Of a DNA stretch of 64,000 nucleotides, positions 13,563 to 55,725 are shown piece after piece. The stretch is from the NCBI GenBank assembly GCA_019114515.1, contig DXFH01000002.1, forward strand, positions 103,266 to 167,265, in the 5' to 3' direction. The stretch comes from Candidatus Limosilactobacillus merdigallinarum. Its GTDB lineage: Bacteria; Bacillota; Bacilli; Lactobacillales; Lactobacillaceae. Every line of letters starts with the position of its first letter. Position 1 is the stretch's first letter. Both the position numbers and the translations under genes were made by a program. The notes beneath the pieces are model-generated. The model did no database searches, was not told the DNA's origin, and saw nothing but the letters and a program-made list of their open reading frames with translations.

Positions 13563-13650
13563 CTTGTGCACCTCCTTAAATCTCAGACTCGCCGAGACAA
13601 GCAGCAAAGCTTTTAACTTGTCGTCGTGCGGTTGTAGTTGTTGGTTCACA
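13563..13650 (-). promoter_or_regulatory. Putative ribosomal protein L21 leader
   Basis: GC-rich structured-looking 5'UTR directly upstream of rplU ending in AAGGAGGTGCACAAG-ATG; Firmicutes rplU operons commonly carry an L21 leader in this position. Confidence 0.5.
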
Positions 13651-33767: not shown

Positions 33768-34005
33768 GGCCATAAAAAAAGCCCCGTCCGAAAAAGGGAC
33801 GAGGTTCATTCGCGGTACCACCCTAGTTTATGACATGTGTCATACACTCGACGATTTGATAACGGCAATCAACCGGGATAATACCAGCTCAGGAAGTGAA
33901 ATTCGTTAGGCTTCCCAGAGGATGACTTTCAGTGAATCCATCATCCCTCCCTGACAGGTATTCCTAACTACTAGTTTCCGTCAAAGCGTTCTTTAATAAT
34001 TGGTT
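33768..34005 (-). promoter_or_regulatory. T-box leader (tRNA-Phe responsive) upstream of pheST
   Basis: minus strand AGGGTGGTACCGCG (33811-33824) antiterminator core followed by terminator CCTCGTCCCtttttcGGACGGGGCTTTTTTT; candidate TTC specifier in GAATTTCACTTCC. Confidence 0.93.
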
Positions 34006-46526: not shown

Positions 46527-46774
46527 AATGTTACCTCGTCTAATTCTTTTTATTATTAATTATACCGACAGTCACAAAGGGGTTCAATTATCTAATAAAT
46601 TCAATGAAAACAACTAACTAGTATTGCCTGACTTTCTTGTTAAGCTTTAACATTATGGGATTAAACTTTCCCAGCATTAGGTTACCATTTACAGGATCTA
46701 AGAAGGACTCACATTGTAGTCACTGCTTGCAGTAATGCGATCTAAAACGGCAACTAACATTAACGATTAATCAC

Positions 46775-46919
46775 ATTACTTGCGACTGCGCGGCGGTCTC
46801 AGTACCGAAATTCAACTTAGCGGGGTACCGCTTAGTCGAAGCCTCAGTTTGAAGACCGGCAAAGACGGGCTTCAAATGATGGCCGCTACGATCCAGAACA
46901 GCCGAGCTAAGCAAGTAAT
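46775..46919. ncRNA. Putative structured intergenic element, copy 1 (strand undetermined)
   Basis: Core 46793-46897 roughly 78-80% identical by eye to 55594-55695; internal hairpin AGCGG-GGTA-CCGCT; flanked by perfect inverted arms ATTACTTGC / GCAAGTAAT. Confidence 0.5.
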
Positions 46920-46965
46920 AGGTTATCTATCTAAAATATTCCTACTCAGCTAATGCCTTGGATAA

Positions 46966-48199: not shown

Positions 48200-48345
48200 G
48201 AAAGAAGAAGCAAAAAAGCGAGGTGCAAAACACACCCCGCTAACGCCGATCACTCGACGAAATTTCTACTAGTCAGCCCGGTCACTCTAGTCACCAAGGC
48301 GAGAAGCGGGTGCTTCTGCTTTTCTTTCAACAGTTATATAGACTA
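48200..48345 (-). promoter_or_regulatory. Putative L20-type leader/attenuator of infC-rpmI-rplT
   Basis: minus strand structured leader ending in terminator GCGGGGTGtgttttgCACCTCGCTTTTTTGC just upstream of the infC RBS. Confidence 0.7.
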
Positions 48346-55492: not shown

Positions 55493-55567
55493 AATTTAAA
55501 TTATTTGGCCAACACTGTGGATGAACTGAATCGTATTACGTAAAGCCATCATAGTGAGTAAATCAAC

Positions 55568-55710
55568 TGATGTTATAACATTGCGATTGATCAGCGGTCT
55601 CAGTGGTGAAATTCGACTTAGCGACCTTTCGCTTAATCGAAGCCTCAGTTTGCAGACCGATAACGGGCTGAAAATGATGGCCACCACGTTCCAGACCGCA
55701 ATTAGCATCA
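55568..55710. ncRNA. Putative structured intergenic element, copy 2 (strand undetermined)
   Basis: Core 55594-55695 similar to copy 1; hairpin AGCGA-CCTT-TCGCT; flanking arms TGATG..ATTGCG / CGCAAT..CATCA complementary but different in sequence from copy 1 arms. Confidence 0.5.
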
Positions 55711-55725
55711 GCATTAGCGCTTTAA

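Follow-up and report, generated by a model that had tools for sequence, protein, structure and literature searches.

The element that lies between rplT and yqeG is, at a probability of about 0.7, a module of a non-autonomous, REPIN-/MITE-like mobile repeat family of Lactobacillaceae chromosomes that would be recognized as folded DNA. Its relatives share a single fold, are spread through the genomes of this bacterial family, and occur in pairs, and the repeat family is real, widespread, and apparently undescribed.

Modules in the window and in the Lactobacillaceae

The window (the whole stretch of DNA analyzed here, 64,000 nucleotides) contains two copies, both on the plus strand, and the host genome holds more. 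Copy 1 is a full module at positions 46772 to 46921 (cmsearch, 146.9 bits, positions 1 to 151 of covariance model R1), between rplT and yqeG. Copy 2, also a full module, occupies positions 55573 to 55720 (132.7 bits), between polA and the gene for a Bax1/YccA-like membrane protein, the names of these neighbors having been assigned by reading ORF translations. A first-pass annotation of this DNA had placed the two copies at 46775 to 46919 and 55594 to 55695, and both are present there. Its estimate of roughly 78 to 80% identity agrees with the 79% that we measured over about 118 bases, and the hairpin and loop replacement that it described (AGCGG-GGTA-CCGCT in copy 1, AGCGA-CCTT-TCGCT in copy 2) is as claimed. 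The statement that the element has no ORF holds for copy 1 and fails for copy 2, which is overlapped by two mechanical ORFs of 71 to 72 amino acids; nothing suggests that these ORFs are genes.

The terminal arms of copy 1, which like the other parts described here are given on the plus strand, are ATTACTTGC on the left (46775 to 46783; family consensus AAAACTTGY) and GCAAGTAAT on the right (46911 to 46919; family consensus RCAAGTTTT). Inside them are the 5' side of the closing stem, GCGGTCT (46793 to 46799); helix P1, whose 5' side TACCG (46803 to 46807) has its partner at 46884 to 46888 and covaries across copies; arm P2 (46811 to 46840), where a conserved T.T mismatch sets 46818 opposite 46833; arm P3 (46841 to 46883), with a bulged G at 46847, an A.G mismatch at 46855/46869, and a bulged T at 46880; and GATCC (46890 to 46894), the 3' side of a conserved 2x5 internal loop (CA/GWTCC). 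GCGGTCT and AGACCG had been proposed to pair around the core in both copies. This is correct for copy 2, which has a clean partner, AGACCGC, at 55693 to 55699; in copy 1, AGACCG (46853 to 46858) lies inside arm P3, and the true partner of GCGGTCT is a degenerate AGAAC at 46895 to 46899.

Compared with shuffled sequence, each of the two copies folds far better, whichever strand is taken, with z scores of -4.2 to -4.8 for RNA and -4.1 to -5.8 when DNA folding parameters are used. The window also contains RNA leaders that are already known, all on the minus strand: a T-box (33792 to 33993), the L20 leader (48206 to 48327), and the L21 leader (13575 to 13643).

The description of the element as present in two copies was wrong; the host genome carries 13 strong copies plus about 8 that are diverged or truncated, and both the nature of the element as a dispersed, lineage-specific repeat and the divergent-pair organization of its copies had been overlooked. 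When copy 1 was searched with blastn against this genome (G000; Limosilactobacillus, 1.56 Mb in 32 contigs), 15 convincing places were found. Model R1, which was built on 13 full-length copies, scored the 13 strong copies at 126 to 173 bits and a further 8, weaker or truncated, at 39 to 82 bits. The flanks of G000 copies have nothing in common except second modules and one short match, and because flanks are unrelated between copies, the copy ends, around AAAACTTG...CAAGTTTT, are sharp. Two chimeric or truncated copies, G000:C11:49793-49966 (L046) and G000:C29:27929-28066 (L047), have a replaced 5' half, which in L046 is part of an oppositely oriented module.

Within Limosilactobacillus, 5 of 54 genomes were positive: G000, G063 (47 copies), G074 (78), G022 (5), and G075 (2). 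A covariance-model search of the Lactobacillaceae, in which seven candidates were scored per genome, was positive for 86 of 401 genomes, which fall in 13 of the 40 genera, and copy number within this bacterial family ranges from 0 to more than 100. Complete or near-complete genomes carried 107 copies (G201), 105 (G420), at least 150 (G393), and 12 (G124); the genus of G201 and G420 (g21) is one that we take to be Companilactobacillus. When 398 Lactobacillales genomes were searched with model R2, every strong match fell in the Lactobacillaceae, and two genomes of another family of the order gave one marginal match each. Only Limosilactobacillus, Companilactobacillus, Pediococcus, Lacticaseibacillus, and Loigolactobacillus were matched in a sequence-pattern scan of 84,980 species. 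Plasmid and phage collections gave zero blastn matches with two different family members, a pattern scan of viral contigs in IMG/VR gave zero matches, and Rfam yielded no convincing match for the element at gathering or permissive E-value thresholds. Although lactobacilli, as bacteria of food and the gut, have been sequenced heavily, a repeat family that exceeds 100 intergenic copies in some of their genomes is missing from Rfam. We found no earlier description of it in the open-access literature, which is no proof of novelty.

Conservation of the fold at the DNA or RNA level

A single three-way-junction plan, in a module of about 100 to 160 bases, is common to all lineages. Read along the plus strand, it comprises a closing stem, the internal loop CA/GWTCC, helix P1 (5 bp), AAA, arm P2, and arm P3. 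Across lineages, arm P2 carries a near-invariant T.T mismatch; in arm P3 an A.G mismatch occurs together with two bulges, one a T and the other mostly G or A. In an alignment of 100 distinct rows, which was fitted to a related structure and is to that extent biased in the fold's favor, 96.5% of pair cells are standard and both sides have changed in 39 of 43 pairs. Covariation in this alignment scores 0.626, versus 0.165 for shuffles and 0.04 to 0.08 when partners were slid. A motif parse of 68 copies, in which stem complementarity was used solely for the choice between registers, recovered identical helices. That the fold is under selection, as the first-pass annotation had proposed, is strongly supported; copies and homologues are many, covariation is strong, and neither a tRNA nor an Rfam match was found.

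G074 has a GC-rich subfamily (L087 to L096) with additional outer arms GGGCCTCCGCTCCGG...CCGGAGCGGAGGCCC around the module, and in a second subtype of this subfamily CCAAGATGG/CCATCGTCACGG replaces CTCAG/CGTTCCAG.

Whether the selected fold is one of RNA or of DNA had been left undecided, and the evidence favors DNA. A strand that acts as RNA should tolerate G-U on that strand and not A-C. As a control RNA, the L20 leader of the host genus was aligned and folded; it had 95 G-U and 0 A-C pairs. The corresponding counts in the elements were 30 G-T versus 44 A-C (29 versus 38 once each combination of genome, column, and type is counted a single time), and in G201 elements they were 49 versus 44. 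The full element set was somewhat G-T rich (81 versus 58) on a model-fitted alignment, the model having been trained as RNA and leaning toward G-U. With G-T as rare as A-C, neither strand looks RNA-like. This symmetry could partly stem from neutral decay of dead copies; G-T makes up about 2% or less of cells in the elements versus 16% in the control, and it follows from this low frequency that wobble pairs are seemingly missing from the master sequences too. We conclude with moderate confidence that selection acts on a DNA fold and not on RNA. The G-T versus A-C count is a cheap way to tell whether the structure of a repeat is maintained at the DNA or the RNA level.

The element might instead be a structured noncoding or cis-regulatory RNA (a 3' UTR stabilizer, a terminator, or an sRNA) that was spread by duplication. 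Deep covariation and conserved loops do resemble those of RNA families, copies lie near gene 3' ends, with the outer end turned toward the gene 3' end in a ratio of 58:31 (hand tally of pooled copies), and the G000 arm ends AAAACTTG/CAAGTTTT are terminator-like in look. We nevertheless judge an RNA of this kind to be unlikely, given that G-U is not preferred over A-C on either strand, as against 95:0 in the RNA control, that both orientations relative to genes occur, that U-runs are missing from the arms in other genera, and that Rfam offers no match.

Empty sites, paired units, and a possible mover

The closest relative found, G026 (93% identical in yqeG; assembly 86% complete), had zero copies in the genus-wide search, and the element is missing from it at 4 of 4 host sites tested. 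Between rplT and yqeG, about 354 bp of host DNA that includes copy 1 (46609 to 46962) is replaced by 33 bp, the whole spacer measuring 512 bp in the host and 189 bp in G026; at the polA site, about 223 bp that includes copy 2 (55502 to 55724) is replaced by 12 bp. The two other empty sites measure 253 versus 84 bp and 256 versus 38 bp. Of 28 further Limosilactobacillus loci, 25 have an rplT-yqeG spacer of 120 to 162 bp, two are long exceptions, and one was not measurable. Long intergenic regions were recorded here in L228 and L235 (G009 and G012), at 936 and 874 bp.

The DNA that G026 lacks is longer than the module by about 20 to 170 bp, and for this surplus at copies 1 and 2 a search through 0.92 Mb of host sequence turned up no source. 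Inspection by eye of about 10 copies from G000 and of 18 units from G201 revealed no target-site duplication. For the empty sites, gain is more parsimonious than the loss of every copy by G026, although loss could be what happened. Mobility of the family is well supported.

Adjacent copies are arranged in a consistent way: 49 of 56 are divergent (-+), 7 are tandem, and none are convergent (+-). Divergent arrangements account for 20 of 20 cases in G201, 12 of 12 in G063, and 17 of 24 in G074, and convergent ones occur in none of these genomes; a separate tally of neighboring copies gave 23 -+, 4 --, and 0 +-. The pairs inspected in G000, G063, and G075 combine two different module subtypes in either order, and some pairs in G074 have both modules of one subtype. 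In G201, the unit is a module pair plus spacer, mostly 370 to 510 bp in length, with no ORF and with inverted repeats of about 20 bp at its ends that resemble GGTTAAGNATGCCGTCGTCCG. G201 spacers have sequence common to several units and in some cases a central hairpin, and G074 spacers have a center that is unique to each pair, recurrence being limited to the inner 60 to 70 bases. A second, simple hairpin repeat, GCATCTATTCAG...CTGAATAGATGC (G201 L310, L322, and L334), was found in some pair spacers or beside solo modules.

We looked for a mobilizing enzyme close to the copies. Recurrent neighboring genes included no recombinase and were diverse host genes only, the largest cluster being an ABC-type ATPase, judged by its sequence, and ORFs between or beside paired copies had no Pfam match or were ordinary host genes. 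Y1 transposase (PF01797) was rejected as the driver in three carriers; it is absent from the carriers G000 and G063, which are incomplete assemblies, and G075, which is 99% complete, and it is present in many noncarriers. No parental IS or transposon with matching ends was found in 800 kb of G201, where the terminal repeat is present at modules only.

Units without an ORF that end in inverted repeats of about 20 bp, along with truncated and chimeric copies, could also suggest ordinary IS or MITE remnants whose inverted repeats fold by chance, the fold itself being unselected. This we regard as highly improbable; simple inverted repeats would leave unexplained both the compensatory changes at 39 of 43 pairs in three helices and the near-invariant mismatches and bulges, and the 800 kb of G201 contained no parental IS with such ends.

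The genomic placement of copies bears on a further possibility. In the same 800 kb of G201, 0 of 37 clusters lie within an ORF, many begin no more than tens of bases from a stop codon, and convergent intergenic regions hold more than their share (12 of 37 clusters versus 58 of 382). Among the best-scoring 95 hits in G201, 54 of 75 units fall in the origin-proximal half (one-sided p about 9e-5), the origin being set at the GC-skew sign change near 2.185 Mb; copies show no strand bias with respect to the replichores. The intergenic location, the origin-proximal enrichment, and the lack of any match in the phages and plasmids searched would suit host-maintained chromosomal sites for gyrase, the nucleoid, or replication (compare the proposed roles of BIMEs), kept in place by selection instead of transposition. 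Such sites seem quite unlikely to us, given that most Limosilactobacillus species lack copies (5 of 54 positive), that the closest relative found is empty at each of the four sites tested, that copy number varies from 0 to more than 100 inside the Lactobacillaceae, and that the replichores show no strand bias.

Returning to a mobile family, we infer that its modules are recognized as folded DNA. A recombinase or transposase encoded elsewhere would move the unit or, in the Limosilactobacillus from which the window comes, the solo module. The target of this enzyme would be the module as folded DNA, either a single-stranded hairpin exposed in replication or repair or a cruciform, and the conserved bulges, mismatches, and internal loop may be its recognition marks. 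Helix sequences would be free to drift while complementarity holds, and insertions would survive chiefly in spacer DNA near gene 3' ends. We speculate, tentatively and with the odds against it, that there is an undescribed family-wide system in which a non-Y1/RAYT recombinase mobilizes or maintains paired three-way-junction DNA modules by shape. As naturally occurring folded DNA that covaries while its mismatches stay nearly invariant, the repeats could reveal how proteins recognize DNA by shape, and copies may influence gene 3' ends, assembly, and typing in carrier species.

Comparison with known repeat systems

REP/REPIN repeats, mobilized by the RAYT protein (TnpA-REP), occur for example in Pseudomonas fluorescens SBW25 and E. 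coli (PMC3116915, PMC8266576). Inverted doublets are the replicating unit of REPINs, and singlets are likely remnants (PMC3116915). The enzyme recognizes folded single-stranded DNA, which it reads through bulges or mismatches (PMC8266576). The Lactobacillaceae repeats are also intergenic, high in copy number, and non-autonomous, with inverted doublets over-represented (49 of 56 -+), and their fold has conserved mismatches and bulges too. They differ in having a three-way junction of about 100 to 160 nt in place of a hairpin of 29 to 37 nt preceded by GTAG (no constant GTAG was seen beside modules in the copies inspected) and in a unit of about 370 to 510 bp that has terminal inverted repeats and is confined to the Lactobacillaceae. 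The REPIN model, moreover, expects a Y1 transposase, whereas three carriers of the Lactobacillaceae repeat have none. REPINs are the best functional analogue; because module architecture, unit length, and the missing Y1 differ, we do not file the Lactobacillaceae repeats among them.

A survey of structured repeats lists the Firmicutes families bcr1, BOX, RUP, and Efa-1 and, for the one Lactobacillus genome that it covers, L. johnsonii, reports only the genic family Lac-1 (PMC2267715). The four listed repeats resemble ours in being about 60 to 170 bp long, dispersed, and intergenic, with predicted structures on both strands. They are reported as stem-loops or double hairpins with no link to a three-way junction, and it is by these descriptions that we set them apart.

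Bacterial MITEs are likewise short, free of ORFs, present in many copies, and bounded by terminal inverted repeats, as are the GGTTAAGNATGCCGTCGTCCG-type units of G201 and the G000 copies with AAAACTTG/CAAGTTTT. Unlike MITEs, the Lactobacillaceae units have no target-site duplication that we could see, and inside them lie three-way-junction modules whose conservation shows as covariation; the 800 kb of G201 yielded no parental transposon.

Integron attC sites conserve structure rather than sequence, and their extrahelical bases are recognition marks in folded single-stranded DNA. The Lactobacillaceae repeat also places structure over sequence, and it does so in a three-way junction, whereas attC is a single hairpin. 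If recognition by shape is borne out, these modules would be a further kind of repeat recognized as folded DNA, alongside REP and integron attC.
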